From positions 11,532,001 to 11,596,000 of the forward strand of contig NC_083511.1 of assembly GCF_032362555.1 (NCBI RefSeq): DNA of 64,000 bases, in the 5' to 3' direction. This document shows, piece after piece, positions 3,201 to 63,738 of the stretch. Both the position numbers and the translations under genes were made by a program. Position 1 is the first letter of the stretch; the number at the start of each line of letters is the position of its first letter. Below the pieces are notes generated by a model. It made no database searches and was not told where the DNA came from. It was given only the letters and a program-made list of their open reading frames with translations. Source of the DNA: Amyelois transitella. Lineage: Eukaryota; Arthropoda; Insecta; Lepidoptera; Pyralidae.

Positions 3201-6200
3201 GGATTTTTTCTGCCTATTAAAAAAAAAATTGTGTTACTGACAATTTTTAATGTTTCAAGGTGCCATTTGAACTAAGTAACTGACTGACTAACTAACTGAT
3301 ATCTAAGAATTACAAACACGGAAAGTTGTCTTCAAACACGGAAATCAGCAAGAAATATTAAACAAGAGGGAGAAAATAAAACATTCAATAAAAGTAATTA
3401 GTAGTTTTAATATAAACTGGCAGAATAAAACATTCAATAAAAGTAATTAGTAGTTTTAATATAAACTGGCAGAACCTTTCACGCACTATATGGACTCGAT
3501 GCACAGGACACAAATGATATTGTTGGCATATCATCAATCGGATAAATATACCGCACAGTTGGTAACATGGTTTCTTCCAGCACTTGCACATAATGAGCAG
3601 CTGTAGCGCGTCCTGCTATCCACACCTGTTCCCCAGGTCCAGCAGCACTCATCCAGCCCCACATATTTACAGATATGTGTCCAGACTCCATATTTGGCAC
3701 AATATTTTTTTCTTCATACCGAGTTGCATTTCTTCGCCATAAATGAAGCCTACCGTGTAGTGATGACATAAACGAACTTTTCGTCCGTAAATATCGCTTC
3801 TTTCCAGGCAAAATCCAAATACTGCCCAGCAAATTCTAAACGTTTTTGCTTATTTATTTCGGATAAATACGGCTTTCTTGCTGGCTGTCTGTGGTGTAGT
3901 CCCTCACGATGCAAACTCAACGAACAGTAACCACTGATGTGTCGAACTGTTCCGCAAATATTCTGGTCGGTATGAAGCCATTATTTTCGTACTGTTCCAC
4001 CATGGATCTCCGCTGTGTGGCTGTCGCTGTGTTGATTATTAGCGGACGACGGTCGCTGCGCGGTCGACTTTTTACACTACCCTCTTCTTGATGACGCGTT
4101 ACCCAACGTTTCACCGCTTGTTGTTTATTGTGTTATTTGTGTGAATGTGTGAGTGATAGCAGCGGTGCAAGCTATAAAGTTTTGCGAACTATGACTGCAA
4201 TTATGAACGCGACCGTACATACGAAGACCATATAGGAAAAATGCAAACAGTTAAGATATACATACATACATGATAATGATATAGATAAATATTAACTAAG
4301 AATCATTGGCAATACATTAGGTACCATTTTTAAACACAACAATTCCCTCACCCCCTCCCAGCAATGAACCCCCCCAACAACGGCGCGCCCCCCCCCGCCG
4401 TGTACGCGGGCGCGGCGCAGTACGCGTGCGGCGTGAAGTCCGTGTTCTGGTGCGCGCCCGGCGCCGCGCCCTCGCCGCCGCCGCACGTGCTGCCCGCCGT
4501 GCCGCATGCCGGTCAGTTTGTCTGTACATGTATCTTTTATTTATATTAGAAATGTCCAGATGGTTCACTCGTATATAGGGTTGCCATCTCGAAAATTTGG
4601 AAAATCGGACAAGACGCGTGAAAACCCCGGATTTTAGAGTCCGAAAGCCGGACATGTTAACATGATCTTTTAAACATATACAATGCAATAAAAGACATTT
4701 GAATATTAAACAAGAAATCAGAACATTTTTAAAGTTTAAACCTACAGCAATGTAAGCGGCCCAAATTTTTTTTATTCATTAATATTTTAAAACCCGGTCT
4801 ACAAATGAAGCCTTCCCCGGACACTCCCCGGATGCCCTCTTAACTAGGACAAATCCGGGGAAACCCGGACGGATGGCAACCCTACTCGTATAGAAAGGAT
4901 GAATGAAAGTATGTACTTTGACTAAGAAAATATTTATATATATTTCAGGAGAAAAGCTAACTTTTTGTGACTTGTAAATTTCTTTCACAAATAAATTTCA
5001 TATTATATAAAAATTGTCCCCCCCCAGGTCCGCCCCCGCCGCTGCCGCCGGGCCCGCACGGGCCGCACGGCGCGCCGCCCGGCCCCAACGTCAACCTGCA
5101 CGTGCACAAGAGCGTGCACGCTAACGGGGCCGACCTGCCCATGCACGGTGAGTGACAGTAAACACCCCCCATACACCCCCCTGTACCCCCTCTAGGTAAT
5201 CTGCCCATGCACGGTGAGTGACAGTGGACACACCCCCCTGTACCCCCTCTAGGTAATCTGCCCATGCACGGTGAGTGACAGTGGACACACCCCCCTGTAC
5301 CCCCTCTAGGTAATCTGCCCATGCACGGTGAGTGACAGGTTACACGCCCCCCTGTACCCCCTCTAAGTAATCTGCCCATGCACGGTGAGTGACAGTGGAC
5401 ACAGCCCCCTGTACTCCCTCTAGGTAATCTGCCCATGCACGGTGAGTGACAGGTTACACGCCCCCCTGTACCCCCTCTAAGTAATCTGCCCATGCACGGT
5501 GAGTGACAGTGGACATAGCCCCCTGTACTCCCTCTAGGTAATCTGCCCGTGCACGGTGAGTGACAGGTTACACGCCCCCCTGTACCCCCTCTAAGTAATC
5601 TGCCCATGGACGGTGAGTGACAGTGGACACACCCCCCTGTACCCCCTCTAGGTAATCTACCCATGCACTGTGAATTGTGTGTCACACACCCTAGTACTAC
5701 CCTCTCTAGGTAACTGGATGCTCGATCCGAGGGTCAGGTGGTTGCTGCAAAGGTTGCGAAGGTCTGACGGGAGTCGCTTCGTGTGAATACCTGACTCATC
5801 CAATCTAGGGTCCATGGTCGAAGGCGTAATCCGAGCTCCTCTCTTAATGGTGTGGATGTACTTCCTCTAGGTACGCCACGGTGACGGATAATTAAGGACG
5901 ACGATTGCGATGGTTTACCCCCCCTTTTAGCTATAGATACGCCACTTCAAAGGGTGGTTATAAATGGTGACTGTACTCATCACGGCTTTATCCCTTGCGG
6001 GATAGACAAAGCCAACAGACAATCTTAAAAGCAATATATACGCCATTGCGAGGGACGCTCATGAACAGTGAATTTACTAGAATATTTTTTAATAGTTAAT
6101 ACATTAACATTACAACGAGAGATACCATGATCTAATACGGGTTACAGAGGGAAAACATGATGAGGAAATCTACTAATTCAGGCTACTGGATTGTAACTAT

Positions 6201-10719: not shown

Positions 10720-12000
10720 GGGGGGAGAGGGGGGGGGGGAGAGAACGGATGGGATATGCTTTGAGTGAGTGCACTGCTCGCAAATTGTTTGGATTCGAGA
10801 CGTTGTGTTTTAAGGAGTGCGTAGAGGAAATTTGTGTTAATTTTTTTCAGTTTTTTAGGTTTTTTTTTTCAAGTTTTCAAAAATCTCTTTTTTTTCCAGT
10901 TTTTATTTTTTTTTAGTTTTTTTTTTTCAAGTTTTCAAAAATTCTCCCAACGCTCATAGTTGTCTATGAACACGTCTTAATAATCAGTAGTTCGCAATAG
11001 TTAAATGCACATTATGAAAAGAGTTTTGTAAGAAAAATAACATGACGTTTGTTATCCCGCTAGCAAATTGTCTCATTGTTTATTTTCTTTGCCGCTTTAT
11101 GTGCAGCGGACGACACAGAGAAGTATATACTACCTTCTTACGATAGTTATAGTTTTTTTCGTGGTCAATTGTACATTAAATGATAAAAAATAATAATCGA
11201 TAAAGTTCACAATAAAATAAAAAAGAAACAATAACAACCTTAGTAACTGATTAATTAAATACAATTTCCTCTGCGACTTTGAAAATGCGCGTCTCAAGTG
11301 CGGTTAGAAATGGGTGATTTGTAAATCGGTGTTCAATTCGTTTCCTCGCTGAAAAGTAAATAATCATTTTCACACGTCATTTGCTAAACATATCTTGAAG
11401 AATGTCATCAATTAAATTTTGCAAGTTTTTAATTTTGATTGAAATAATAATAACAGCGTCAGATTTATATTTAAAAAAAAAACCAGTGGTGCTCAAATTT
11501 TAGTGCCATGTTTAAATATTGTTATTTAATTTTGTTTTATTTAAGTAATCTTAACTGTTGATAAAAATAATATTTTAGCCGCCGATGTCGATGATGAATT
11601 GAGAAGCATAATTTGGCGACCTCTGTTGCACAGCGGTGCTTGTGCTGTGGCACGCAGATCCCGGGTTCGAATCCCGGCCAGGGCATGATGAGAAACGAAC
11701 TTTTTCTAATTGGCCTGGGTCTTGGATGTTTATCTACATATAAAAGTATTTATAATTATTAAATAATATATAGCGTCGTTGAGTTATTAATTTGTTTGTA
11801 ATTGTTGTTTCGTTTTTTTTTTCAAGTAAATATATTTTTTTTTTAAATAATATTGAAGCATTTAAACCCACCAATATAAACTTAAAAAATATGCTGTTTA
11901 TAGACAAGTGGGAAGCATATTTTTTTGTTATTTTTTCTTGTTTTTGTTAGTGTTATTTTAATACAGTTTTCATTGAAATGTAAAATAAAATACTGTAACA
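10720..12000 (+). other. Probable 3' UTR of the upstream gene
   Basis: No coding potential follows the stop at 10719. The stretch is T- and A-rich. AATAAA hexamers occur near 11211 and 11984, either of which could end the transcript. A family B SINE sits at 11613-11788 between them. The true end cannot be fixed without transcript data. Confidence 0.4.
11613..11788 (+). repeat. tRNA-derived SINE family B, diverged copy
   Basis: A tRNA-like promoter block is present: CCCGGGTTCGAATCCCGG at the B box, then CCAGGGCATGATGAGAAA, CTGGGTCTTGGATGTTTATC and a GTCGTTGAGTTATTA end. The A-box half is diverged, so it is not a functional tRNA. Confidence 0.75.
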
Positions 12001-14610: not shown

Positions 14611-14619
14611 GAAAACATA

Positions 14620-17010: not shown

Positions 17011-17014
17011 CCTA

Positions 17015-20455: not shown

Positions 20456-20629
20456 CGAATAGTTGGTCTCATGTTTGCATTAAAATTTACAACATCCTTA
20501 TAACGCGTCAATAACAGTTTGTTTCTCATGTCTATTGTCTCTTGCAGTCACTTGACCGTTCTAACGATTACTTATCAGTTAAGTGGAATAATCCATTCGA
20601 TTCAGTACATAAGTGTCTGACATATGGTA

Positions 20630-25051: not shown

Positions 25052-28000
25052 TTAATCCAACCTAACATTAAAACTTTCACCCCCTTTCACCCCCAACCCA
25101 GACAACTTGAAGGTGCACCCGGCCGGCGGCGGCTGCGGGGCTCCGCGGTCCACGCGCGCGGTCGTCACCAACAGATCTCGCAGGGCGGGGCCTCCGAAGG
25201 CGCACGAGGTAACTTGGAGAGCTGGCATCTTGATTTTGTCGAGGAGAGCCCCGTTATGAGGATCTATTTTCAATATCTGTAAATACATAAATATGATCAC
25301 GTTTATATCCCTTGCGGGACAGACAGAGCCGACAGTCTTGAAAAGACCGAAATGCCACGTACAGCTGCAAGGCTTTATAATGGAATTGAGATTCAAATAC
25401 TGACAGATTACTTGCTTATCGCCTACAAGAGTAATCTCAAGTTTATTATCCTATCCCTTAGTCGCTTTTTACGACATCCATGGGAAAGAGATGGAGTGGC
25501 CCTATTCTTTCCACACGGCACGAAAAACTTATTAAAGAAAAATTTAGTTGTTCATCAAATTAATACTAAATTGTTTATGGTAAATAAATATATATATATA
25601 TATATATACTTACGAGGCTATTATCAAAGTTGGCGACCCACAGATTGCCCTCCGTGTCTATGGTCATGCCGTCCGGGATGCCCTCCAGTCCGTGGTCTTT
25701 GAACACGAATATCAGTTTCGGATTAGCTGAAATAGAAATTAGTATCTTTTAAAAAAGGGGTTGTTGCTTTGTCGTAGAAGGCGACTAAAGACCAAACTTG
25801 GGGTTCTTTTTTATGCGATGGGCTAGCAACCCGTCACTAATTGAACTCAATTCTATCATTAAGCCGAACAGCTGAACGTGGCTTATCAGACTTTTTTTAA
25901 GACCGTTGGCTCTGTCCACCCCGCAAGGATATAGACGTGACCATATGTATGTATGTAAATGTAAAAAAGGCGTTGTTGCTTAGTCGTAGAAGGCGACTAA
26001 GGGATAGTCTTACATAACTTGGGGTTCTTTTTTTTATGCGATGGGCTAGCAACCTGTCGCTATTTGAATCTGAATTCTATCATTAAGCCGAACAGCTGAA
26101 CGTGGCCTATCAGTCTTTTTAAAGACTGTTGGCTCTGTCTACCCCGCAAGGGATATAGACGTGATTGTATGTATGCATGTATGTATGTAATTAACTCAGT
26201 CATTTATGTACTACTCACCTATATTCCCAGTCTCAATATCATAATCATATCTCCTTATAGCGTATTCAAACGAGTCCGCGTAGTAGAACGCCTTATTGCG
26301 GACATCCCAACATAAACCGTTAGATATGTGTATGTTTGTTTCGAGTTTACGCTGCGAACCATCGCTGTTTATCAAATACAGGCTGCCACGGCTCAGGTGA
26401 AACTTGCCAGGAGCATACTCCTCGCCCATCGTACCTGAAACATAGGTACAAGAAGTCTTTATTGGACCATAAGAAATAACAGCAAATTCCCATCTATGCT
26501 AAAAACATTACAGCAATTGGCCACCTTATCAATAAAGGCGATCGCTTACAGGTAATAAATAATATATATAAATATATAAAGGACAAATTATTGTATTGAG
26601 TTAACCTCTTAGTAAGTTAGAGACTTGTGTTACGAGATACTAACTCAACGATGATATATTTTATAATAAATACTTATATAGATAAACATCCAAGACCCAG
26701 GTCAATCAGAGAATGTTCTTTCCTCATCATGCCCTGGCCAGGATTCGAACCCGGGACCTCCGGTGTCACAGACAAGCGTACTACCGCTGCGCCACAGAGG
26801 CCGTCAAACTTAGAGGTAACTTTTAAATTATGGATAGAATTTTTTAAAAAGAGAATAGATTAGCAGATGGCGCTGAGTAAACTCATATCTATTGTCAGTT
26901 TTTTCGGTTTCCATTTTTACATACATACATATAATCACGTCTATATCCCATCACGGGGTAGACAGAGCCAACAGTCTTGAAAAGACTAACAGGCCACGTT
27001 CAGCTGTTTGGCTTAATGATTTAATTGAGATTAAAAATATTGACAGGTTACTATCCCGTTGCCCAAAAGGAGAATCCCAAGTTTATAAGCCTATCCCTTA
27101 ATCACTTTTAAATTCAAACTCAATTTTTTTTCTTTACCTATTATTGGACACTTCATATCACTACGTATTGACATAATTTGTAGAATGTGCATTCGTCCAC
27201 GATTTAGATTTAAGAGATCTATATTTGTAAATTGACGTCCGATGAAAATGCTGCAGTGTAGTTTGTTCCGCCGCTTCTTCTACACATGCGCTTTGGAAGC
27301 GGTAGTAGTTATAATTAGATTTAAGTTATGTGACGTCAATAAGTGATACTTTGTATCCTATTTTGAAAATAAATCTATTCTATTCTATTCACTTAATAAT
27401 TGTCATACCTTTTGGTTTCACAACATTGGTTGACGTCTAATAAATTACTTAAAAACTAAGTTTACTGCCGTTTCCAAGGCGTCAGGGCAAAAGAAACGAT
27501 AAGAAAGAGATGGAGTGGCCCTATTCTAAAATGTAAAAGATAATATGCACGGATCGTGGCAATTTAAAGATGTGTCTACCCCTTCAGAAAAGAGGCTTGA
27601 TTATAAGTGTCTAAGTATATGTCTAATAATACATACATACATATATTATGATCACGTATTTATCCCTTACGGGGCAGACAGAGCCAACAGTCTTGAAAAG
27701 ACTAACAGGCCACGTTCAGCTATTTGGCTTAATGATAGAATTGAGATTCAAATAGTGACAGGTTGCAAGCCCATCGCCTAAAAAAAGAATCTCAAGTTTG
27801 TAAGCCTATCCCTTAGTCGCACTTTTACGACATCCATGGGAAAGAGATAGACTGTTTTGTATTGGTTCTTTTTTGTATTGGTGCCGGGAACCACACGGCA
27901 CGGCATATATGAGTCAAAAAAACAAATTACTTACCAACAAACAACCTGCCCCTGGGGTCAGCCTTAGCATCGTTCAGTCTGTTTGTCGGTATGTCACCGT

Positions 28001-45715: not shown

Positions 45716-45719
45716 GTAA

Positions 45720-48794: not shown

Positions 48795-49637
48795 TTAAAT
48801 GAGCCGCGACTGTTTGAGATAATGCAGCAACACTTGATGCAGGAATTTGTATTGGTGCACATTTTCTATGAGGTTAGCCCGCTGTTGCTGGAGCAGGCTG
48901 ATTGTTCGAGGGATGTCTAATTCCTGTGCAACAAAAAAAAAAAACAAATTAATAGACAATTAGAAATGTTAGTGGCGTCAATCGATCATGAAACATTTAT
49001 TGACTCAATTTACCGCTTTATGACTGATATAAATACGTGTATTACAGAAAAGGGATTGTACGAATTTTGGTCAAAAATAGTATTAGGTTTACAAGAGAGA
49101 AGATGTGTCAGAGTGTCACCCACATGGGTGTGTGAAGGTAAAAAAAAAAGACAATAAAAGGACATACTTAGGTACCTTTCATTCCGGTAAAAATTAAAGT
49201 TCCCGTGGGATTTGAGAAAAACCCTATATTATTTTGTAGGTGGCGCTCAATTAATCTCAATTGGTCGTGGTCCGGGATATGTGACAATACCTAGACGAGG
49301 CTGTTACAGGAATACACATCATCAGAAATATTGATTCCTCTATAGCCTAGTCTCTATGATGTCGAAGCTATACGAAAAAGACTATAGTTTTGGTATGCTC
49401 GTATACATACATACATATAGTCTATATCCCTTGCAGGGTAGACAGAGCCAACAGTCATGAAAAGACTGACAGGCCACGTTCAGCTTTTGGCTTGATGATT
49501 GAACGAGATGGAGTGGTCGTGTGTGTGTGTGTGTCCGCGCGGTCACCTGGCTGTGGTCCAGGATGTGCGCCAGCAGGTGCGCGGCGAGCGCGAGCCCGGC
49601 GCGCGGCGCGGCGCCCGCCAGCAGCACGAGCGGCGCG

Positions 49638-49686
<49 letters not shown>

Positions 49687-49782
49687 GTCACCTGGCTGTG
49701 GTCCAGGATGTGCGCCAGCAGGTGCGCGGCGAGCGCGAGCCCGGCGCGCGGCGCGGCGCCCGCCAGCAGCACGAGCGGCGCG

Positions 49783-49831
<49 letters not shown>

Positions 49832-49927
49832 GTCACCTGGCTGTGGTCCAGGATGTGCGCCAGCAGGTGCGCGGCGAGCGCGAGCCCGGCGCGCGGCGCG
49901 GCGCCCGCCAGCAGCACGAGCGGCGCG

Positions 49928-49980
<53 letters not shown>

Positions 49981-50076
49981 GTCACCTGGCTGTGGTCCAG
50001 GATGTGCGCCAGCAGGTGCGCGGCGAGCGCGAGCCCGGCGCGCGGCGCGGCGCCCGCCAGCAGCACGAGCGGCGCG

Positions 50077-50125
<49 letters not shown>

Positions 50126-50221
50126 GTCACCTGGCTGTGGTCCAGGATGTGCGCCAGCAGGTGCGCGGCGAGCGCGAGCCCGGCGCGCGGCGCGGCGCCC
50201 GCCAGCAGCACGAGCGGCGCG

Positions 50222-50270
<49 letters not shown>

Positions 50271-50366
50271 GTCACCTGGCTGTGGTCCAGGATGTGCGCC
50301 AGCAGGTGCGCGGCGAGCGCGAGCCCGGCGCGCGGCGCGGCGCCCGCCAGCAGCACGAGCGGCGCG

Positions 50367-50417
<51 letters not shown>

Positions 50418-50513
50418 GTCACCTGGCTGTGGTCCAGGATGTGCGCCAGCAGGTGCGCGGCGAGCGCGAGCCCGGCGCGCGGCGCGGCGCCCGCCAGCAG
50501 CACGAGCGGCGCG

Positions 50514-50562
<49 letters not shown>

Positions 50563-50658
50563 GTCACCTGGCTGTGGTCCAGGATGTGCGCCAGCAGGTG
50601 CGCGGCGAGCGCGAGCCCGGCGCGCGGCGCGGCGCCCGCCAGCAGCACGAGCGGCGCG

Positions 50659-50707
<49 letters not shown>

Positions 50708-50803
50708 GTCACCTGGCTGTGGTCCAGGATGTGCGCCAGCAGGTGCGCGGCGAGCGCGAGCCCGGCGCGCGGCGCGGCGCCCGCCAGCAGCACGAGCGGC
50801 GCG

Positions 50804-50852
<49 letters not shown>

Positions 50853-50949
50853 GTCACCTGGCTGTGGTCCAGGATGTGCGCCAGCAGGTGCGCGGCGAGC
50901 GCGAGCCCGGCGCGCGGCGCGGCGCCCGCCAGCAGCACGAGCGGCGCGC

Positions 50950-50985
<36 letters not shown>

Positions 50986-51081
50986 GTCACCTGGCTGTGG
51001 TCCAGGATGTGCGCCAGCAGGTGCGCGGCGAGCGCGAGCCCGGCGCGCGGCGCGGCGCCCGCCAGCAGCACGAGCGGCGCG

Positions 51082-51130
<49 letters not shown>

Positions 51131-51227
51131 GTCACCTGGCTGTGGTCCAGGATGTGCGCCAGCAGGTGCGCGGCGAGCGCGAGCCCGGCGCGCGGCGCGG
51201 CGCCCGCCAGCAGCACGAGCGGCGCGC

Positions 51228-51263
<36 letters not shown>

Positions 51264-51360
51264 GTCACCTGGCTGTGGTCCAGGATGTGCGCCAGCAGGT
51301 GCGCGGCGAGCGCGAGCCCGGCGCGCGGCGCGGCGCCCGCCAGCAGCACGAGCGGCGCGC

Positions 51361-51396
<36 letters not shown>

Positions 51397-51492
51397 GTCA
51401 CCTGGCTGTGGTCCAGGATGTGCGCCAGCAGGTGCGCGGCGAGCGCGAGCCCGGCGCGCGGCGCGGCGCCCGCCAGCAGCACGAGCGGCGCG

Positions 51493-51541
<49 letters not shown>

Positions 51542-51638
51542 GTCACCTGGCTGTGGTCCAGGATGTGCGCCAGCAGGTGCGCGGCGAGCGCGAGCCCGGC
51601 GCGCGGCGCGGCGCCCGCCAGCAGCACGAGCGGCGCGC

Positions 51639-51674
<36 letters not shown>

Positions 51675-51770
51675 GTCACCTGGCTGTGGTCCAGGATGTG
51701 CGCCAGCAGGTGCGCGGCGAGCGCGAGCCCGGCGCGCGGCGCGGCGCCCGCCAGCAGCACGAGCGGCGCG

Positions 51771-51819
<49 letters not shown>

Positions 51820-51916
51820 GTCACCTGGCTGTGGTCCAGGATGTGCGCCAGCAGGTGCGCGGCGAGCGCGAGCCCGGCGCGCGGCGCGGCGCCCGCCAGC
51901 AGCACGAGCGGCGCGC

Positions 51917-51952
<36 letters not shown>

Positions 51953-52049
51953 GTCACCTGGCTGTGGTCCAGGATGTGCGCCAGCAGGTGCGCGGCGAGC
52001 GCGAGCCCGGCGCGCGGCGCGGCGCCCGCCAGCAGCACGAGCGGCGCGC

Positions 52050-52085
<36 letters not shown>

Positions 52086-52181
52086 GTCACCTGGCTGTGG
52101 TCCAGGATGTGCGCCAGCAGGTGCGCGGCGAGCGCGAGCCCGGCGCGCGGCGCGGCGCCCGCCAGCAGCACGAGCGGCGCG

Positions 52182-52230
<49 letters not shown>

Positions 52231-52327
52231 GTCACCTGGCTGTGGTCCAGGATGTGCGCCAGCAGGTGCGCGGCGAGCGCGAGCCCGGCGCGCGGCGCGG
52301 CGCCCGCCAGCAGCACGAGCGGCGCGC

Positions 52328-52363
<36 letters not shown>

Positions 52364-52460
52364 GTCACCTGGCTGTGGTCCAGGATGTGCGCCAGCAGGT
52401 GCGCGGCGAGCGCGAGCCCGGCGCGCGGCGCGGCGCCCGCCAGCAGCACGAGCGGCGCGC

Positions 52461-52496
<36 letters not shown>

Positions 52497-52593
52497 GTCA
52501 CCTGGCTGTGGTCCAGGATGTGCGCCAGCAGGTGCGCGGCGAGCGCGAGCCCGGCGCGCGGCGCGGCGCCCGCCAGCAGCACGAGCGGCGCGC

Positions 52594-52629
<36 letters not shown>

Positions 52630-55600
52630 GTCACCTGGCTGTGGTCCAGGATGTGCGCCAGCAGGTGCGCGGCGAGCGCGAGCCCGGCGCGCGGCGCGGC
52701 GCCCGCCAGCAGCACGAGCGGCGCGCTGCGCCCCGCCGCCGGCGAGCACCACTCGCCCGCCTCGCACGACAGCCGGAGCGCGTTCATTTCCGACAGGAAC
52801 TCTGGAATATATATAGGAGACATAAAAATAACTTTTACGATAAATAAATATAAACACCATTTAAGAAATACAAATAAAATAAAATTACCCACACCTAGAA
52901 CTAAATATTGAAAGAGTGATATATTATATGAAGGAGCAAAAATGTTTAATGACTTACCTAAGGACTTAAAAAACATAAAAACTTTGACTTTGTTCAAAGG
53001 AAGACTTAAAAATTATATCTACACCAAAAATTTTTCAATTACTTAACTTTTTTCGAAAACTACACTGTTTATTTGCGTCAATATTTTTAACAATTATTTA
53101 TAAATTAGTAAATTAGTATAGAGTCAATAAATATCTACTAACCGAGACATATTTAGTTCAAACAAATCAGTGAAAATCTCTAGAGCGCGTTTTAAAACCG
53201 CACAGCGCCATCTATTAGTCTAGCTCGTAAACTCACCGCGGAACGCCGCCACGTCGGCGGGGGCGGGCAGCGGCCCCCAGCTGCGGTAGTGCACGTGCCA
53301 CAGCCGCCTCGGGGCGGGGCTCCCGGCCCGGCGAATGGTGACCAGCGCGGAGCTGCCCCATGGCGCAGTCGAAGACGTGCCGCATGACACTTGGAACTGG
53401 TGGCGAGTGTTTAGTTTTGTGAGACAAAAAGGCAATATATATTCAACAAGGGAACATATTTTTTTTTTTTTTGTGTACTGGAAACAAGGGAACATATTTT
53501 TTTTTTTTTATGTACTGGTAACAAGGGAACATAATTTTTTTTTTCTATCCGGTACAAATACACAATTGAAACTTTAAGTCACGACACGTGTCTTTGTTTA
53601 TTTATGTTTATTTTTTTGTTACGTGCGCATATTGACCTTCACTAGCACCTAGGTCATAACTGAAAATCAGCGTATTGCTCTACACTAATAAATTCGTTGA
53701 GTTGTGACCTTTTTGTACTGCTGCAACTCACACCCTATTAATTTGTATTTCATATGAAATTGTAAATCGTGTGTAGCAAATCAAATAAATGAATTATCTA
53801 TCTATCAAAAAATACACTGATTGAGTTAGCCTCGAAGTGAGTTCGAGACTTGTGTTACGAGATACTAATTCAACGATACTATATTTTATTATAAATACTT
53901 ATATATATGTAGATAAACATCCAAGACCCAGGCCAATCAGAAAAAGTTCTTTTCCCATTCCATGCCGTGGGCGGGATTCGAACCCGAGACCTCCGTTGTC
54001 ACAGACAAGCGTACTACCACTGCGCCACAGAGACCATCAAATTATAGTGTAATAGTGAAGAGAATAGAATAGAACAGATTTATTTTCAAAATTGGATACG
54101 AAGTATCAATTATTGACGTCACATCACTTAAATCTAATTATAACTACCACCGCTTCCAAAACGCATGTGTAGAAGAAGCGGCGAAACGAACTATACTGCA
54201 GTATTTTTACCGGACGTCAATTTACAAACAAAAATTCAAATTCAAAATTTTTATTCATTATTATACATAGGATACTTCATATCGCTTTATAATTGTCTAA
54301 AGCCTTCCTCGATGAATGGTCTATACAAAGCAAAAAGAATTTTTCAATTCAAACCAGTAGTTCCTGATATTAGCGCGTTCACACAAACAATAATGTATGT
54401 ATGTATGTAAAATTATTAAAGTCAATATACAGACCTGTCCATATTGATGCGTCCTGTTATCCGCTGGGAGGTAGTGGGGCCTCTTCTCATCAACAAACGC
54501 CACGAGACGTGCGCCGACCTGGAAAATAATCAGTCGTTAAGTAAAAATTTACACCATGTTAAATAAGGGTCCAGGTTAAGTAAAAATATCGTGTCCTAGG
54601 CGAACTGAAAAAGAAAATTTTCTTTCTCCCTCTTACAAACTAATAACAAAGATAAAAAACCATAGCAACCGGACAATGCCATATATACATAGCTAGTATA
54701 TAAATAGTATACATACAGAGTGACTTTTAATTCAACTGCATAAATTTAACTGTTAAGTGTACTCATCTAAAGGATATTTAAAAAACGTTAAAAGAAAAAT
54801 ATCGGTTCATATTTCAGAAAGTACGAAAAAAATAAAAGTATCAAAATCCACGATCCTAAATACGTCATATCACCCCGACCGGCGGAAAAGCGACGCGTAA
54901 GATTCAGAGGTCAACGACACAATTCATTCAGCTGACCGATCTCGACAACTCTGTACTTTACTTGATTTTGGTACTAGAAAAATAATTTATATTTGAGACA
55001 TTTATTTACACGTTTTAATTTCTTTTTGTAGTATTGGTCTTTAATAAAGCGTGTGACGTAGTTTTTGAAAATGATAACGTTTAATTTAAATAAAAATAGG
55101 CTCAAACAGCTCAGAAGCATGGGTATAGTCTATGTTTAAAAGGATGCAGTTGTTTTAAATGTCACCCTGTATATAGATATACCTGCCAAGCGCACTCCCA
55201 CACCAAGGGGCAGTGTCCGCCGCACGAGCAGCCCGCGGGCGCGGCTGCGGCTGCCGGTGGGGGGTGCGGGGGGGAGGACACCTTCCCCACCACGTAGAAC
55301 TGCTGGGTGCTGCCCACCGTCATCTGTGGGGGGAACAATTGTCATTGTGATATATTTATAGATACATACATACATATAATCACGTCTATATCCCTTGCGG
55401 GGTAGACAGAGCCAACAGTCTTGTAAAGACTAATAGGCCACGTTCAGCTGTTTGGCTTCAAGATGGAATTGAGATTAAAATAGTGACAGGTTGCTAGCTT
55501 ATCGCCTAAAAGAAGAATCCCAAGTTTATAAGCCTACCCCTTAGTCGGCTTTTACGACATCCATGGGAAAGAGATGGAGTGGTTCTATTCTTTTTTCTAT

Positions 55601-58600
55601 TCGTGCCGGGAAACACACGGCAAATATTATTATATAATAATATTATTATTAATATACTTATTTATAGATATTTATAAATAATCATGCAATAAAACCACAG
55701 GATAGCTTGGACACGAATGCCATGTATTTTCAAGATGCGCGCGCATGGGACGACGCGCCACAGATAAACAAGAACATAACAAGAAAGAGTTTGTATAACA
55801 TTTCAAACTTCTTTGAACATATATATCACATTGTCAGCGTGAAAGCTCATTGCTCAATCATTAACAAAACAAGTAGAGGATGTCAATAAAAAAAATCATT
55901 TTTTTTTGGTTAATTTTTTTCTGAAGTGCCCTGTCACTATTTAAATCTCAATAGTATAGGACCACTCCATGGATGTCGTAAAAGGCGACTTAGGGATAGG
56001 CTTGTAAATTCGTGACTCCTCTTGTAGGCGACGGGCTAGCAACCTGTCACTATTTAAATCTCAATTCCATCATGAAACCTCAGCATACAGCCGAAAGTGG
56101 TCTTTATGAGACCGTTAGCTCTGTCAGCCCCGCAAGGCATACAGACGTGATCATATTTACGCGCCACAAGCAAAAACGTCGTAACATGTAAATCTCACCG
56201 TGATATGTGAAGCGTTGATATAACCGCACGGATTCTGCGGCGAGGGATGTAGCCTGACCCTGTTGTCCTCATAAGGAAGGCTGTCCAGGCTATTGCCGTT
56301 GATGGAGGCGTGTTGAGGTAGCAGGGCCGTCTTGAACTGCTCGGCCGATGCCCCTGATCGGCCTTTGGGTATCTGGTCGAAGGCGAATGACAGCTGATCG
56401 TCGGACATCTTGCGTTCGAGCAGTTGGCACTGTTGAAAAAAGATGTGCGTTTAAAATGTAAGCTACTTCGTAGTTTGTTACGCCGCTTCTTCTACACATG
56501 CGCTTTGGAAGCGGTAGAAGTTATAATTAGATTTAAGTTATGTGACGTCAATAAGTGATACCTTGTACCCAATTTTGAAAATAAATCTATACTATTAGCA
56601 TAAATTACTTTATCGTATTAAATTAAGCATCAATAAAATTGTTCTTGACCCCTAATGTTTTAAATGCATTGCCGTGTGGTTCCCGGCACCAATACAAAAA
56701 ACAATAGGACCACTTCATTTCTTTCCCATGGATGTCGTAAAAGGCGACTAAGGGATAGGCTTATAAACTTGGGATTCTTCTTTTAGGCGATGTGCTAGCA
56801 ACCTGTCACTATTTAAATCTCAATTCTATATCATTTAGCCAAATATCTGAACGTGGCCATTCAGTCTTTTCAAGACTGTTGGCTCTGTCTACCCCGCAAG
56901 GGATATGGACCTGATTAAATGTGTATGTGTGTTATTAAATTTATCGTCGATTCACTGACACACGATATGGCCATCTGTTGTGAAATAACATTTTATCAAC
57001 AATTGTACAGTTAAATTCAAATTGATTTTCATATACCTATTCGTGCTCAATTAATAAGACTCAGGTTACTACTATACATACATACATTAAGTCACGTGCA
57101 TCTCCCTTGCGGGGTAGACAGAGTTAGCAGTCTTGAAAAGTGACAGGCTGTCAACCCATCGCCTACAAGAGGAATCCCAAGTTGATAGGCCTATGCCTTA
57201 GTCGCCTTTTACAACATCCATGGGATATATATGGAGTGGTTCTATTCTTAAGTGCTGGAAACCACATGGCACCGGCAACCGAATATATATGTAATATATC
57301 TACGTATATATTTATTTGATGATGTTAATCGGTACTAATATTATAAAGCTGAAGAGTTTGTTTGTTTGTTTGTTTGAACGCGCTAATCTCAGGAACTGCT
57401 GGTTCGAATTGAAAAAAAATATTTTTGCGTTGAATACACCATTTATCGAGGAAGGCTTCAAGGCTATATAACATCACGCTGCAACTTTAAGGAGCAAAGA
57501 AATAATGGAATAATGTGAAAAAGACGAGGAAATTTATTCATCATCCTTGAAGGCTTCAATGATGCTCAAAATAACTATTCCACGCAGACGAAGTCGCGGG
57601 CACAGCTAGTAAATAAATAAAATAAATAAAAATAAAAAAAGCACTTACCAAAGTCTCTTTAGTGATGCTCGGCGGCAGGGGCTGCGCTTTCGGCAGCCCC
57701 GTGGACCAGCGGTGCGTGTGCGCAGGCCGGGGCTCCGCCCGCGCGCGGCCCAGCGTCGCGCTCTTCACCTCCTTAGCGTTCCCCCTCCCCATGAACACCC
57801 CCCACCTCCTACGCTTCTTCTCTTTCCCACTCACTGTACTCTTACTAGAATTAGCACTATCTATCTCAACCGAAGTAAACGTGGAGTTCGTCAAATTGCT
57901 AACGTCACTAACGTTTATAGACGTGACGTTGTCCGCGCTTTTAGTTATATTGTTGTTCACTTTGTGAGTCGATAAACTTTGATACGGGGTCTCGTCATTG
58001 TTATCTTCATGTTGTAACGACAGTCTATCGACGGCAAGAGTTATATTTTCGAATTCTTGCTTGTTGGAATTCAAGTCTTTGGGCACGCTGGACTCTCTAA
58101 CACCTTTGATGACTTGGGCGTTCACATAGTGGCTGTCTGGTGTTTGTATGTTGATGGAGACTTTAGGATAAGACGCGTTGTTGATGCCGTAACTGTTTAT
58201 GGTGGGGTGACTGCTATTCCGCTCGTTCAGACGCGCGATCTCGTCCGTAGTCGTAAGACTGTGCGCCCGATCCCTCATTGTGTTCTTGCTGTGATCCAGC
58301 CACGGTAAAGGAACGTTCTCATAGATCGGCTCCCGAGCGTCTGCCAGCTTGATCGGCTGTTGAGGCACGACCCTATGCCTCTGATACGGCACTCTATGCA
58401 TGGGCATAGAGTACATAATATTCCCTCTTTCGTCGTAAACTTTTTGGATACTATCAGAGATGTGGTGGGGGTCCATGATTATGTGCGGGTTGGGTTCCAC
58501 CACAGAGTTGAGGTTGTTGTAAGTGCCGTGGGTGTTGGGTAGGATGTTGGGCCGTGGGTAATTGACAACGTTATGGGTACCAGGATTGATATAGCCAAGG

Positions 58601-61600
58601 TATTGTCTGTTAATGACAGTTCTAGTGGAAACCAGGTCCGGACTGGAGCCTGAGACGTGGGAATTGATGTATCCTCTGTGATAGTTCATCGCTTGACTGG
58701 CCAAAGCTAGATCTGGCGTGGAGTTTGAGGCTAGACCGTTAGAGGGGTAAGGAGGGGGTGGTTTATAGACATTAATGTATTGTAATTTGGGATTCCTTTC
58801 AGTCTGGACGTTAGGGTTCACTGCGAAGGGCACTGGCAGGATATTGAGCCCGTAATGGTAGTCTTCGACTTGGTTCACGGATAGAGTGTGCCTGGTCACG
58901 TCCGGGTAGTGAACCCGGTGGATGTCCGGGTGGGAGCCGTATGCTAGCGGTTGGTGGGGGTGGCTTTGGTATCTGAGTTGGGCCTCCGCCCTTTGCTGTT
59001 GGTATTTTTGTTGTATTGCCGTTTCGTAGTCAGGCGCCGGGCGGTACGATGGTAGAAGGGCACTGTGGAGGCAAATATTTCGTATCTATACAAATATTAT
59101 AAAGCTGAAGAATTTGTTTGTTTGAACGCGGTAATCTCAGGAACTACTGGTTCGAATTGAAAAATTCTTTTTGCGTTAAATATATCACTTATCAAGGAAG
59201 GCTTTAGGCTATATAACAACCCGCTGGAATTATAAGGACCAAAGCTGCTGGCCAAAGCCAACGTGGCTTTTCAATATTTTCAAGACTGTTTGCTCTGTCT
59301 ACCCCGCAAGGGATAAAGACGTGATTATATGTACATAAATACATATATGACAGACATGGCGATACTATAATGATCTTTTCTTTTACTACTTAACAGAACG
59401 TTAAACAGACAATAATATTACAAAGACTTGACGGCCTCTGTGGCTCAGCGGTAGTACGCTTGTCTGGGACACCGGAGGTCCCGGGTTCGAATCCCGGCCA
59501 GGGCATGATGAGAAAAGAACTTTTTCTGATTGTGCTGGGTCTTGGATGTTTATCTATATAAGTATTTATTATAAAATATAGTATCGTTGAGTTAGTATCT
59601 CGTAACACAAGTTTCGAACTTACTTCGAGGCTAACTCAATCAGTGTAATTTGTCCCGTAGGTATATATTTATATTTATATATATATTTATTTATATATAT
59701 TTAAAGACGGTAGACAAACTTACCGATTCCTGTGTACAACTTGAGGCCTCTGTTCAGCCAGTTCTAAGCAGGACGTGGAGTGAGCCCTGTGCGCCGCCGA
59801 GAGTGGCTCGAGGCGCGCCACGGACCCCAGGGCGGAGCCCCCGGCCTCCCGAGTGTCCAGTTCTTCGCGACTATCCGATAGGCAGTGGTCTTGCTGTTTA
59901 AACGGACATTATCATTGATTTACAAATTGACTGACGTGTATGTGGTTCCCGGCACAAATAGAAAAATGAATAGGACCACTCCATCTGTTTCCCAATGGAT
60001 GTCGTAAAAGGCGACTAAGGGATAGGCTTATAAACTTGGGATCCTTTTTTTAGGCGATGGGCTGGCAACCTGTCACTATTTGAATCTCAATTCTATCATT
60101 AAGCCAAATAGCTGAACGTAGCCATTCAGTCTTTTCAAGACTGTTGGCTCTGTCTACCCCGCAGGGGATATAGTATAGACGTGACCATATGTATGTAGGT
60201 ATGTACTTATGTATATAAAAAACATCAGTATTGAAACAGTTCCTGTACCTACAGAACCATAAAAAGTTACAATACTTTCACTCCCGTCACTTAGCGTCCA
60301 ATTCATATCTTCACTAACATCACACGAACGCAATTTTTGCGATAAGCCGATAGTTAATTTATGGTTAAAAAAAACATATGATTATACACCGCGGCGCTTG
60401 CGCACGCGACCGCAAGATGGCCGATAGACGGACAGTGTATGCGATTTTTATAGCTGTATACATAAATAAAATTTATACATATTGTCACGTCCATATCCCA
60501 TGCGGGGTAGACAGAGCCAACAGTCTTGAAGACTAAATGGCCACGTTCAGCTATTTGGCTATAAAATTTATGTTTAGTGATACTAACCTAACGATACACA
60601 TACACACACAGATACACATATAATCACGTCTATATTCCCTTTAGGGTAGACAGAGCCAATAAATAGTATTGAAAAAACTGATATGCCACGTTTAGCTGTT
60701 AAGTTTATGATAGAATTGAGATTCATATAGTGACAGTCGCCTTTTACGACATCCACGGGTAAAAGATAGAGTGGTTCTATTCTTTCTATTAACATCATTA
60801 TTTTGAATTTTTCAGATTTCATTATTACTAAGACACCTTGATTAGGCTTGGCATGTCAACAATTATTACTTCTAGAAAGACCTAAGTGATACAAAATTAT
60901 TTAAATTATAATTTAGACACCGCCCGCGTCTTCGGCCGCATGGAACTTCCATCGTAATCCTTTCAGTAGTTTTTGCGTGAAAGAGTAACAAACATCCATA
61001 CACTGACATCCTGACATACTCACAAACTTTCGCATTTATAATATTAGTAGGATAACTTTTTTTATAGTAAAAGTTACGACATAGCATTATATTTTTTTTG
61101 TTAATAACAAAAATATTATAATGCACTTTACAAAACAAATTTAACTTAGCGAATCTCAATAATTACTATCAAACATTAACAACAATGAGCGTACAATTAC
61201 AATTCACACTTTCATCTGTATGTATATAAGAACATAGCGAATCACGTGGAAAATACAATGCATTGACAAAACACGCGTCAGTTGTTCAAATGTGCATATA
61301 ATTTACTGGCGGAAGACAACATGTAAAATTTCACTTCCAGTAAGGAAGTCATCTACGTATACTAATACTATAAAGCTGAAGAGTTTGTTTGTTTGGACGC
61401 GCTAATCTCAGGAACAACTGGTTCGAAAAATTATTTTTGCGTTGAATAGACCATTTATCGAGGAAGTCTTTAGGCTATATAACATCACGCTGCAACTATA
61501 AGGAGCAAAGAAATAATGGAATATGAGAACAAAACGGGAAAAATTATTCATCCTTGAGGGTTTCAATGATGCCCAAAATAACTATTCCACGCGGACGAAG

Positions 61601-63738
61601 TCGCGGGCGGAAATTACCTGCAATTTACTGGCGAGCGCTGTGTTAGGTGTTGGATGGTCGCTCAACGCCTTCTGATGTTGCATATAGAAGGTGTGTTGTT
61701 ACACGCACATTCGCCTCAAGTCTATATCGTTCTCAAGACCCTTAAATTTTCAATGATAATACTATATTTATTAGCAGAACGGCAAAAATTACCTGCAATT
61801 TACTGGCGAGCGCTGTGTTAGGTGTCGGATGGTCGCTCAACGCCTTCTGATGTTGCATATAGAAGGTGTGTTGTTACACGCACATTCGCCTCAAGCCTAT
61901 ATCGTTCTCAAGACCCTTAAATTTTCAACGATAATACCATATTTATTAGCAGAATGGCAAAAATTACCTGCAATTTACTGGCGAGCGCTGTGTTAGGTGT
62001 CTGATGGTCGCTCAACGCCTTCTGATGTTGCATATAGAAGGTGTGTTGTTACACGCACATTCGCCTCAAGTCTTTACCGTTCTCAAGACTCTTAAATTTT
62101 CAATGATATATACCATGTTATTAGCAGAACAACAAAAATTACCTGCAATTTACTGGCGAGCGCTGTGTTAGGTGTCGGATGGTCGCTCAACGCCTTCTGA
62201 TGTTGCATATAGAAGGTGTGTTGTTACACGCACATTCGCCTCAAGTCTTTATCGTTCTCAAGACTTTTAAATTTTCAATGATAATACTATATTTATTAGC
62301 AGAACGACAAAAATTACCTGCAATTTACTGGCGAGCGCTGTGTTAGGTGTCGGATGGTCGCTCAACGCCTTCTGATGTTGCATATAGAAGGTGTGTTGTT
62401 ACACGCACATTCGCCACACGTCTTTCTTTGTCCTCAGAGGCCATACATTTTTAATGAAATACAGTATTTATCAATAGATCGACAAAAATTACCTGCAATT
62501 TACTGGCGAGCGCTGTGTTAGGTGTCGGATGGTCGCTCAACGCCTTCTGATGTTGCATATAGAAGGTGTGTTGTTACACGCACATTCGCCACACGTCTTT
62601 CTTTGTCCTCAGAGGCCATACATTTTTAATGAAATACAGTATTTATCAATAGATCGACAAAAATTACCTGCAATTTACTGGCGAGCGCTGTGTTAGGTGT
62701 CGGATGGTCGCTCAACGCCTTCTGATGTTGCATATAGAAGGTGTGTTGTTACACGCACATTCGCCACACGTCTTTCTTTGTCCTCAGAGGCCATACATTT
62801 TTAATGAAATACAGTATTTATCAATAGATCGACAAAAATTACCTGCAATTTACTGGCGAGCGCTGTGTTAGGTGTCGGATGGTCGCTCAACGCCTTCTGA
62901 TGTTGCATATAGAAGGTATGTTGTTGCACGCACATTCGCCACACGTCCTTCCCGTCCTCAGGGCTCCACAGGATGAAGGAAGCTGACTCCGCTTGCTGGA
63001 GACACTCTATGCTGAATGTGCGTTTGTGGTTAATCACATTCGTTATGTCCATCCACCTGGTTTTGGAGAATAAATATTTATGGTATTGGAAGATGTATAA
63101 AGTGCCGTGTGGTTTCCGACACTTTGGAATAGAATCACTCTTTTATCTTTACCATGGATGTTGTAAAGGGCGATGAAGGGATAGGCGTATAAACTTGGGA
63201 TTCTTATTTAAGGCAATGGGCTAGCAACCTGTCACTATTTGAATTTCAATTCTATCTTTAAGCCTGAAGGTGGCCTTTTCATGACTGTTGGCTCGGTTCA
63301 AACAGCAAGAGATATAGACGTGAATAAATGTATGTTTTATTAAGACTAATATATGAATGATTTAATTACATTATTATAATTAAACATTAATTTATTCGCC
63401 GAGCTTGCATGAAGAGAGTTACGAATGTGGATGAAGCGAAGGAAGTATGCAGAGATCGTGGCAATTGGAAAGATGTAGTCTCTGCCTACCCCTCCGGGAA
63501 AGAGGCATGATTTTATGTATGTCTGTATTAATTCACTCACCACAAGGTATATAAATCAGGATAACCATTACCTATAATATCTGGTTGTGTCGGGGCTATC
63601 GGTGATGACCTTGATGCCGGTGATGGATATCGCCAGTGTGACCTCCTTCTGAGTCCTCTGATCTCGGGCGCTGAACGTCTCTTGACCGTACCCTGGTAAT
63701 TGCTGGCAGGTCGTGATGAAACCTTCTTCTGCCTGAGC
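48795..63738 (-). CDS. Pez: Pez (PTPN14/21 orthologue): FERM protein with degenerate phosphatase domain, 5' exons outside window
   Basis: Ten minus-strand exons (63738-63572, 63056-62843, 59893-59724, 59062-57649, 56429-56199, 55323-55183, 54518-54435, 53396-53237, 52801-52635, 48923-48795) join in phase to give 958 residues plus stop. The first two encode the FERM C-lobe (VWRMCVQQHTFYMQHQKAL). The long linker has LPSYRPAPDYETAIQQKY and VYKPPPPYPSN, a PPxY motif that could bind WW domains as in Hippo signalling. The phosphatase domain follows with LPYEDNRVRLHP, GYINASHIT and FQVSC. The domain ends YKFLHQVLLHYLKQSRLI, like PTPN14/21. However, the WPD loop reads YRSWGPLPAP and the P-loop reads LVLLAGAAPRAG, so the general acid Asp and the nucleophilic Cys are both gone. 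This predicts a pseudophosphatase scaffold. Two exons have tandem partial copies in their downstream introns. Confidence 0.93.
49405..49500 (-). repeat. SINE-A 3' fragment
   Basis: It has CATACATACATATAGTC, CTTGCAGGGTAGACAGAGCC and GGCCACGTTCAGCTTTTGGC. It borders the left end of the phosphatase-exon array. Confidence 0.75.
49530..52731 (-). repeat. 23-copy array of phosphatase exon end, donor and CA repeat
   Basis: The unit (minus strand) is the last 91 nt of exon 52801-52635, starting CGCGCCGCTCGTGCTGC and ending ACCACAGCCAG, then the donor GTGACCGCGCGCGC and a CA repeat. Donor motifs recur near 49542, 49686, 49831, 49980, 50125, 50270, 50417, 50562, 50707, 50852, 50986, 51130, 51264, 51397, 51541, 51675, 51819, 51952, 52085, 52230, 52363, 52497 and 52630. 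That is 23 copies counting the real exon. Spacings fall into about 133-134 and 144-149 bp classes, set by CA-repeat length. The exon part looks identical in every copy. The CA run ends CACAG before CGCGCC, so each unit has a possible acceptor and donor. Confidence 0.95.
52870..53045 (+). pseudogene. LINE reverse-transcriptase C-terminal remnant
   Basis: A single frame reads RNTNKIKLPTPRTKY, a stop, then KSDILYEGAKMFNDLPKDLK and NIKTLTLFKGRLKNYIY. This resembles the last part of CR1/Jockey-type ORF2 proteins (the FNDLPKDLK pattern). The internal stop and missing upstream part make it a relic. It lies antisense in the Pez intron between 52801 and 53237. Confidence 0.65.
53440..53560. repeat. 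Three tandem AAGGGAACATA poly-T units
   Basis: AACAAGGGAACATA followed by a T-run and a GTACTGG-like segment repeats three times, with a period of about 40-45 bp. It lies 45 bp upstream of the Pez exon 53396-53237 acceptor on the minus strand. Confidence 0.8.
53815..54040 (-). repeat. tRNA-derived SINE family B, full length
   Basis: It runs from GGTCTCTGTGGCGCAGTGGT (minus-strand head) through GGTTCGAATCCCGCC to GAGTTAGCCTCGAAGTGAG. It is inside a Pez intron. A family T repeat follows at 54058-54280. Confidence 0.85.
54290..54395 (-). repeat. Helitron-like repeat H fragment
   Basis: It contains AAGCCTTCCTCGATGAATGG, AATTTTTCAATTCAAACCAG and GATATTAGCGCGTTCACAC, a partial H copy in the minus direction. 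Confidence 0.65.
54714..55171. mobile_element. Tc1/mariner-type MITE, copy 2, next to Pez splice donor
   Basis: The ends TACAGAGTGAC and GTCACCCTGTA and the interior (CACGATCCTAAATACGTCAT) match the element at 8390-8882, with small deletions (458 against 493 bp). TA follows the right end; the left flank is CA. The right end lies only 11 bp from the end of Pez exon 55323-55183, so the element abuts the 5' splice site region. Confidence 0.8.
55362..55623 (-). repeat. SINE-A, full length
   Basis: It runs from TACATACATACATATAATC to CGTGCCGGGAAACACACGGC with all internal blocks. It lies in a Pez intron. Confidence 0.9.
55950..56155 (+). repeat. SINE-A, 5' end shortened
   Basis: It contains ACCACTCCATGGATGTCGTA, GCGACGGGCTAGCAACCTG and AGCCCCGCAAGGCATACAG. 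It ends in GTGATCATATTTAC, about 40 bp from a Pez exon. Confidence 0.8.
56465..56600 (+). repeat. Repeat family T
   Basis: It contains GTTTGTTACGCCGCTTCTTC, GCGCTTTGGAAGCGGTAGAA and AATAAGTGATACCTTGTACC, and ends AAAATAAATCTATACTATT. It matches 27180-27400. Confidence 0.75.
56671..56935 (+). repeat. SINE-A, full length
   Basis: It starts TGCCGTGTGGTTCCCGGCAC and ends GGGATATGGACCTGATTAAA with TGTGTATGTGTG as a changed tail. Confidence 0.9.
57075..57275 (-). repeat. SINE-A with internal deletion
   Basis: Tail TACATACATACATTAAGTC and block CTTGCGGGGTAGACAGAG are present. The AGCTGAACGTGGCC segment is missing, and the head is diverged (GTGCCATGTGGTTTCCAGC). Confidence 0.8.
57333..57610 (+). 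repeat. Helitron-like repeat H, full length
   Basis: It runs from TACTAATATTATAAAGCTG through GAACGCGCTAATCTCAGG and ACATCACGCTGCAACTTTAA to CACGCAGACGAAGTCGCGGG and CACAGCTAGTA. It ends 39 bp from the donor side of the largest Pez exon. A shorter copy lies at 59090-59240. Confidence 0.8.
59255..59345 (+). repeat. SINE-A tail fragment
   Basis: It contains CAAGACTGTTTGCTCTGTC, ACCCCGCAAGGGATAAAGAC and GTGATTATATGTAC. Confidence 0.7.
59430..59660 (+). repeat. tRNA-derived SINE family B, reference copy
   Basis: The A box region TGTGGCTCAGCGGTAGTACG and B box GGTTCGAATCC form a tRNA-like head. Then come CAGGGCATGATGAGAAAAG, GGTCTTGGATGTTTATC, GAGTTAGTATCTCGTAACAC, GAGGCTAACTCAATCAGTG and AATTTGTCCCGTA. 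The 5' and 3' acceptor halves do not pair, so it is a SINE rather than a tRNA gene. Confidence 0.9.
59938..60210 (+). repeat. SINE-A, full length
   Basis: It starts GTATGTGGTTCCCGGCACAA and ends GACGTGACCATATGTATG. It lies 45 bp from a Pez exon acceptor, in the intron. Confidence 0.88.
60475..60785 (-). repeat. Two adjacent SINE-A pieces
   Basis: 60475-60565 is a 3' fragment (CCCATGCGGGGTAGACAGAG). 60600-60785 is a second copy with an internal deletion, starting at an ACACACAGATACACATATAA tail. Confidence 0.75.
61357..61615 (+). repeat. Helitron-like repeat H, truncated against the FERM-exon array
   Basis: It starts TACTAATACTATAAAGCTG and runs to GCGGACGAAGTCGCGGGC, then switches directly to the array unit (GGAAATTACCTGC). 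The usual CACAGCTAGTA end is lost. Confidence 0.8.
61611..62843 (-). repeat. 175-bp array of FERM exon end plus splice donor, 8 copies
   Basis: The donor motif AAATTGCAG|GTAATTTTTG (minus strand) recurs with an ACCTG landmark on the + strand at 61616, 61791, 61966, 62141, 62316, 62491, 62666 and 62841. The period is exactly 175 bp. The copy at 62841 is the real exon (63056-62843). The other seven hold the exon's last 100-110 nt plus donor and intron. All seven change GTGCAACAACATACC to GTGTAACAACACACC, which puts an in-frame TAA where the real exon has Gln. Three right-hand copies keep GAGGACAAAGAAAGACGTG, close to the exon; the four left-hand copies form a diverged subfamily. Confidence 0.95.
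63103..63335 (+). repeat. SINE-A, diverged
   Basis: It starts GTGCCGTGTGGTTTCCGAC, has GATGTTGTAAAGGGCGATG and GCAATGGGCTAGCAACCTG, and ends GACGTGAATAAATGTATG. Confidence 0.8.
63397..63522 (+). repeat. LINE 3' end fragment
   Basis: It reads GCCGAGCTTGCATGAAGAG, GAATGTGGATGAAGCGAAGG, CTCTGCCTACCCCTCCGGG and GCATGATTTTATGTATG, the same 3' end as 20630-20912. Confidence 0.8.

Follow-up and report, generated by a model that had tools for sequence, protein, structure and literature searches.

Three tandem arrays in the window (the whole 64-kb stretch of DNA that was analysed) straddle the 3' end of a coding exon together with its donor, and they are best explained, with a probability of about 0.7, as exon-boundary minisatellites ('mirages'), in which a tandem duplication fell by chance across a donor and was expanded, homogenised and tolerated. 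They were the arrays detected in the window by Tandem Repeats Finder at a period of at least 50 bp and with at least three copies, the 50-bp period limit being chosen after the fact: array 1 at 5173-5673 (57 bp x 8.8), array 2 at 49519-52728 (133/145 bp x about 23) and array 3 at 61611-62947 (175 bp x 7.6). The native exons end at 5147, 52635 and 62843, respectively, and copy-by-copy reading found intact donors in 9 of 10, 23 of 23 and 8 of 8 copies. The remaining window repeats with a period of at least 30 (13-212, 3375-3474, 52670-52749 and 53445-53548) comprise 2 to 2.8 copies each. The first of these was considered as an acceptor array and rejected, its 2.1 copies consisting of intron beside, not across, the acceptor.

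A preliminary description had claimed three arrays of exon 3' end, donor and adjoining intron, each with a separate origin. Tandem Repeats Finder and copy-by-copy reading agree that the arrays are real and share this anatomy, and the unit sequences are unrelated, so the arrays represent independent events. The limits it gave did locate the three arrays, but the repeated part begins within the exon (for array 1 at 5135, not at 5148). It was also right that the copies keep the native orientation and lie immediately downstream, in the intron, but this is not a separate property, because any tandem duplication over an exon end yields it automatically; from the sequence, the copies would lie in the intron. 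If arrays were placed at random, the chance that three of three in the window would hold a donor is about 4e-4 with 41 donors (a rough, unvalidated hand count from the ORF list) and 2e-3 with 70, both values being inflated by selection because the arrays had been picked out beforehand.

The intron-side ends of all three arrays (61560-61611, 49390-49530 and 5700-6300) adjoin apparent dispersed repeats, and stretches similar to these recur in another locus (L033) or at other places in the window. Two tRNA-family matches in Rfam (26730-26801, minus strand, and 59434-59505, plus strand; 33.1 and 34.3 bits, respectively) are perhaps tRNA-derived SINEs.

Structure of the arrays and their host genes

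Array 1 (5135..5720, plus strand) consists of a 57-bp unit in nine good copies and a last, degraded copy, the first spacing being 66 bp and all later ones 57 bp; it was found at one place only in the assembly. Its native coding exon (5028..5147, plus strand; open frame between an acceptor CAG at 5025-5027 and a donor GT at 5148) is proline-rich, ends in ...NVNLHVHKSVHANGADLPMHG and had no Pfam match up to an E value of 1. In each unit, 13 nt of exon end and GTGAGTGACAG are joined to a C-rich linker ending in CTCTAGGTAAT or CTCTAAGTAAT, and the linker types alternate across part of the array, giving a 114-bp higher-order unit. Read-through past the native donor meets an immediate stop (5153). 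Most units (5180-5720) hold CTCTAG/GTAAT, an acceptor-like AG directly abutting a donor-like GTAAT, which resembles a zero-length (ratchet) exon. An exon upstream of array 1 in locus L033, assumed to belong to the same gene, had a weak KOW domain match (E 0.024) and is reminiscent of a Tudor domain of an OTU-domain protein. Transposase-like open frames were noted by eye near this gene (L033 2960-4320 and window 3479-4132, both on the minus strand).

Arrays 2 and 3 had been assigned to one gene, Pez (PTPN14/21-like), an assignment borne out by matches to FERM_C and to PTPN14/PTPN21. The recognised parts of the gene all lie on the minus strand. The native exon of array 3 (62843..63056, its upper end placed by eye at an AG) belongs to the FERM C-terminal domain (FERM_C, 5.4e-9), and an open frame at 57556..59085, with the central linker exon, had a weak PTPN14 peptide match (6jjw, E 0.011) and no Pfam match. 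The N-terminal part of the phosphatase domain lies in an exon at 56157..56450 (PF00102, 2.9e-4), its P-loop region in the native exon of array 2 (52635..52801), and its C-terminal part in the next exon (48825..48926, G000:C7:11580825-11580926; PF00102 positions 200-233, 20.5 bits). The native exon of array 2 had no Pfam match by itself; joined with neighbouring exons it matched PTPN14 (6iwd, 7.5e-19), PTPN21 (2.7e-18) and Y_phosphatase (3.5e-8). The HCSAG signature and the WPD loop are catalytic motifs of the phosphatase domain. On alignment of 52635-52801 and 53220-53400 (minus strand) to PTPN14, LLAGA stands in place of HCSAG and WGP in place of the WPD loop, and the Pez phosphatase domain, apparently lacking both motifs, looks like a pseudophosphatase in this species.

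Array 2 (49519..52728, minus strand) contains 23 copies in units of 133, 145, 147 or 149 bp, each running from 91 nt of exon end through GTGACCGCGCG into a (CA)n tract, in which CA is repeated 14 to 22 times. The exon part is a single distinct 91-nt sequence in all 23 copies and the units differ in the length of (CA)n, a combination that marks the array as very young or strongly homogenised. Read-through past the native donor stays open for about two further units, and use of a later donor would therefore not be immediately fatal here. Within a few bases after the donor, the units (49519-52634) carry an alternating purine-pyrimidine tract, GCGCGCG(CA)n, and an array at another locus, L013, has a similar (CA/CATA)n tract; alternating tracts of this kind are known for Z-DNA and instability.

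Array 3 (61611..62947, minus strand) comprises the native exon end and seven copies of a 97-nt exon core with GTAATTTTTG, followed by about 68 bp more of linker, of which three are identical type B and four are type A. About 22 bp more exon, diverged, is taken in upstream of the core, and the last copy reads GTAATTT before passing into unrelated sequence. The array was found at one place only in the assembly. Its copies depart from the native exon by the same two changes. One of these converts an in-frame CAA to TAA, which is present in the native frame in all seven copies, and the copies thus are not coding cassettes in that frame. Read-through past the native donor reaches a stop after 13 codons.

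A reading of the units as coding pieces or cassettes was rejected as the main one for each array. In array 1 an acceptor-like CTCTAG precedes an 18-nt in-frame piece, yet 3 of 9 linkers have CTCTAAG; in array 2 (CA)nCAG precedes the 91-nt piece, which is not a multiple of 3; and in array 3, besides the stop, units of type B have no AG at their edge. The arrays share no cassette design.

Turnover and probable tolerance of the repeated units

Under the explanation by chance duplication, slippage or template switching would have produced a local tandem duplication that happened to span the 3' end of an exon. As the copy patterns suggest, unequal exchange would then have expanded the unit, whence the higher-order units, the runs of identical units and the decayed copies at the edges, and conversion would have kept the best-matching part of the unit alike. 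Turnover of units is seen in the alternating linkers of array 1, the three identical B and four A linkers of array 3 and the (CA)n length classes of array 2. Such an array would be tolerated since neither the native exon nor its first donor is disturbed: the first donor transcribed would pair with the upstream acceptor, and the whole array would leave with the intron. Use of a later donor would soon reach a stop in arrays 1 and 3.

The likeness of the array 3 cores could also be ascribed to function. Variable columns number 2 of 97 in the exon core of the seven copies (4 of 97 with the native exon included) versus 36 of 79 in the seven comparable linkers (Fisher 3e-13), and 2 of 97 in the four copies beside type A linkers versus 18 of 78 in the four type A linkers (1.4e-5). 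These contrasts, along with the intact donors counted above, favour an array of functional donors, in which repeated U1 sites strengthen exon definition or protect the intron and selection keeps the copies alike. We nevertheless regard this as very improbable, given that nearly all 97 core positions are kept and not the donor alone, that the copies share two changes relative to the native exon, one of them a stop, and that the approximately 22 bp of copied exon directly upstream of the core has diverged (about 5 changes from the native exon in type B, counted by eye, versus 2 fixed differences in the core; p 0.002). Conversion among copies accounts for the likeness better. Since almost the entire core is kept, in copies unable to code in the native frame, we attribute the likeness to conversion or exchange centred on the matching core and not to functional selection. 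The suggestion of selection for decoy donors made in the preliminary description is unsupported, with a stop in the native frame in 7 of 7 array 3 copies, no sign of copy use and homogenisation explaining their likeness. Nothing points to a function of the arrays, which may supply material from which cryptic splicing and new introns arise.

That the arrays are false, or their copy number wrong, through misassembly is an idea to which the near perfection and long (CA)n of array 2 lend something. It is extremely improbable in view of the ordered variants inside all three arrays, the same anatomy at six other loci and the single place of arrays 1 and 3 in the assembly.

Donors and arrays across the genome

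Six exon-end arrays were found beyond the window in the genome scanned (327 Mb in 33 contigs), which with those of the window makes nine in eight genes; four of the nine were identified by partial reading, two of these four from an open frame and splice sites alone. Around phosphatase and ABC-transporter exons, 122 kb of unique sequence was sampled without regard to repeats, taking in 49 of the 61 matches to phosphatase exons as well as 21 ABC matches. Just two arrays in this sample reached 50 bp and three copies, both across an exon end and donor of a phosphatase exon: L013 showed 10 copies of 107-113 bp in an array that continues past the end of the locus, and L027 had 3 copies of 134 bp, with a GC donor and a diverged last linker. 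No array of this size was present in ten 10-kb stretches at arbitrary places plus 20 kb of flanks. Over the window and the sampled loci (357 kb in all, overlapping loci counted in), every one of the 5 arrays that reach 50 bp and three copies holds a donor, and acceptor or plain-intron arrays of that size number 0 of 5, a small sample. Random placement does not predict such a distribution, which, like the moderate excess of donor motifs over the control described below, counts against chance duplication. Shorter-unit arrays with at least three copies fell outside the 50-bp limit (L062, 33 bp; L025/L028, 42 bp; L011, 43 bp) and by eye resemble AT-rich or dispersed-repeat sequence. A 197-bp duplication at L065, with 1.9 copies and no long open frame, was not accepted as an exon end, and a preference for weak donors was dropped, the donors being mixed among the five arrays.

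Genome-wide, AGGTRAGT triples at even spacing form 3 clusters at a gap of 45-75 (22 matches) and 8 at a gap of 107-137 (31 matches), amounting to 10 different clusters. With strong-consensus donor clusters so few in the two spacing classes, three arrays within one window is unusual, and is partly a product of window choice. The native side was read in 5 of the 10 clusters, and in four it is an open frame ending exactly at the donor. One is a coding exon end in an HSP110 gene (SSE1 3d2e, 1.5e-9), another a C1-domain-like coding exon end (C1_1, E 0.0033, under the Pfam cut-off; PKC, E 0.095), and two were recognised as exon ends by open frame and splice sites only, with no family or structure match; the cluster on C23 had no evident coding exon end on its native side. 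Candidate GGTGAGT arrays were noted by pattern at G000:C6:11825974-11827100, C7:10840442-10841542, C9:9982558-9984302, C18:8469100-8470008, C20:8651584-8652481, C26:6410562-6412392 and C21:764873-765411.

The reversed motif, of the same composition, served as control for the donor motif at gaps of 45-75 and 107-137; the acceptor motif, at 38 per 100 kb, proved too common to be used as a further control. Raw matches for donor versus reversed motif were 22 versus 32 (AGGTRAGT, gap 45-75), 31 versus 30 (AGGTRAGT, gap 107-137), 198 versus 54 (GGTGAGT, gap 45-75) and 59 versus 30 (GGTGAGT, gap 45-58). Clusters numbered 8 versus 5 for AGGTRAGT at gap 107-137, two places on C6 that lie 864 bp apart being taken as one, and 10 versus 5 for GGTGAGT at gap 45-58; C8 perhaps holds no true array, since its two matches differ in sequence. 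With clusters matched by both motifs set aside (C6 and C23; C27 and C28), the unshared clusters were 6 versus 3 at gap 107-137 and 8 versus 3 at gap 45-58, in sum 14 versus 6 (p 0.058 at equal motif frequency, 0.25 with a 60% share for the donor motif). The GGTGAGT scan at gap 45-58 recovered array 1, a positive control that is itself one of the 8, and without it the sum is 13 versus 6 (p 0.084 to 0.31). At gap 59-75 on contigs C1-C19, GGTGAGT had 4 versus 0 unshared clusters among the matches listed, and the reversed motif had further clusters on C27-C31; including C1-C19 gives 18 versus 6 among the matches listed (p 0.011 to 0.096), or 17 versus 6 without array 1 (p 0.017 to 0.124). Before the gap 45-58 scan of GGTGAGT the tally had stood at 12 versus 3, and the fuller count is weaker. 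Counts of GGTGAGT against its reverse in the sample were 30 versus 18 pooled and 4 versus 9 in 100 kb at arbitrary places. Because raw match counts and motif counts point both ways, the donor excess over the reversed motif is at most moderate and not firm. The genome scan for donors in repeats that had been proposed, run here by motif, gave more unshared clusters for the donor motif (14 versus 6, p 0.06 to 0.25) and mixed raw match counts, at best weak statistical backing for a donor-linked mechanism.

Two explanations would give donors a part of their own. In donor-linked mutation, a 5' splice site in transcribed DNA (through R-loops, U1-bound RNA or the passage from a GC-rich exon into a simple-repeat intron) favours tandem duplication, as would suit the donor in all five arrays, the unshared clusters (14 versus 6, or 18 versus 6 with gap 59-75 among the matches listed) and the alternating (CA/CATA)n tracts soon after the donor in array 2 and L013. 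It is quite unlikely, however: the p values of the 14 versus 6 comparison are those given above, the raw matches of the first two scans did not favour donors, one of the five inspected donor-motif arrays (C23) had no evident exon end, and the comparison was with the reversed motif alone, not with acceptors or exon composition. The broader proposition that donors are a real hot spot at which tandem arrays of this lineage are born or survive, with donor mirages in many genes, also appears unlikely; if it is true, the exon-intron edge is a preferred seed of minisatellites and new introns.

In selective filtering, duplications arise everywhere, those at acceptors are lost (the first acceptor would add intron to the mRNA) and those at donors are harmless, so that the pattern is survivor bias. 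This is a tentative possibility, and one that can act alongside chance duplication. The lack of an acceptor array among the five may be such a bias, and read-through from later donors hits early stops in arrays 1 and 3, where the first donor alone would therefore give normal protein. Against it, acceptor arrays are able to survive, as the acceptor-side mirage of the lancelet globin BflGb6 shows (PMC3087553), and the bias by itself leaves the missing purely intronic arrays of the sample unexplained.

Relation to mirages and other boundary repeats

The founding description of lancelet mirages is reportedly the paper on Adh. They are minisatellite-like tandem duplications of exon-intron boundaries, found in Adh and the globins BflGb6 and BflGb9 (PMC3087553), with troponin C and PGBD5 added in a second paper (PMC3902484). 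The first source has RT-PCR of Adh3 and globins suggesting regular splicing despite the mirages, a BflGb6 repeat number that differs between haplotypes, somatic instability at Adh3, and mirages at both exon boundaries, BflGb6 being affected on the acceptor side (PMC3087553). The arrays described here are alike in their tandem units of similar size (10-160 bp) across an exon-intron boundary, in concerted evolution with excluded edge units and, as in BflGb9, in repeating the 3' boundary of the exon (PMC3087553, PMC3902484). The unit spans the boundary in arrays 1 to 3, L013 and L027 (with one degraded copy in array 1); the native exons are intact and in frame, with open native frames and, for arrays 2 and 3, domain matches. 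Concerted evolution with diverged edges is seen in the degraded copy of array 1, the last linker of L027 and the homogenised core of array 3, and this reading was drawn from arrays other than L013, whose edge lies beyond its locus. Unlike the lancelet cases, the arrays are in a host that is moth-like, to judge from repeats and gene content, have up to 23 copies, are on the donor side only in the sequence examined and are known here from sequence alone.

The preliminary description had held that no described class fits these arrays, which the papers on lancelet mirages (PMC3087553, PMC3902484) and on human exon-intron boundary repeats (PMC2812944) contradict. In human segmentally duplicated genes, internal tandem repeats occur at exon-intron boundaries and, being minisatellites that alter gene structure there, resemble the present arrays; they differ in having units of about 30 bp and about 4 copies, some of which make new introns, whereas no sign of copy use was seen here (PMC2812944). 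No report of exon-end arrays in any insect was found in literature titles and abstracts, a coverage outside which most subscription papers fall.

Intron gain by tandem genomic duplication has reported cases in Drosophila and potato, and one paper reportedly ties novel Drosophila introns to tandem duplication (PMC2891723). The duplicated stretch in such cases holds AG/GT signals, as array 1 units hold CTCTAG/GTAAT and a donor; in the present arrays, by contrast, no new intron was seen. Exon-end arrays bear on the old question of the origin of new introns and cryptic exons, and a tolerated duplication of exon ends can be looked for wherever a long-read genome comes with RNA data. Mirages in the literature, as far as it was accessible, come from lancelet genes, and nine arrays in eight genes of another animal suggest a wider, tolerated class of mutation.
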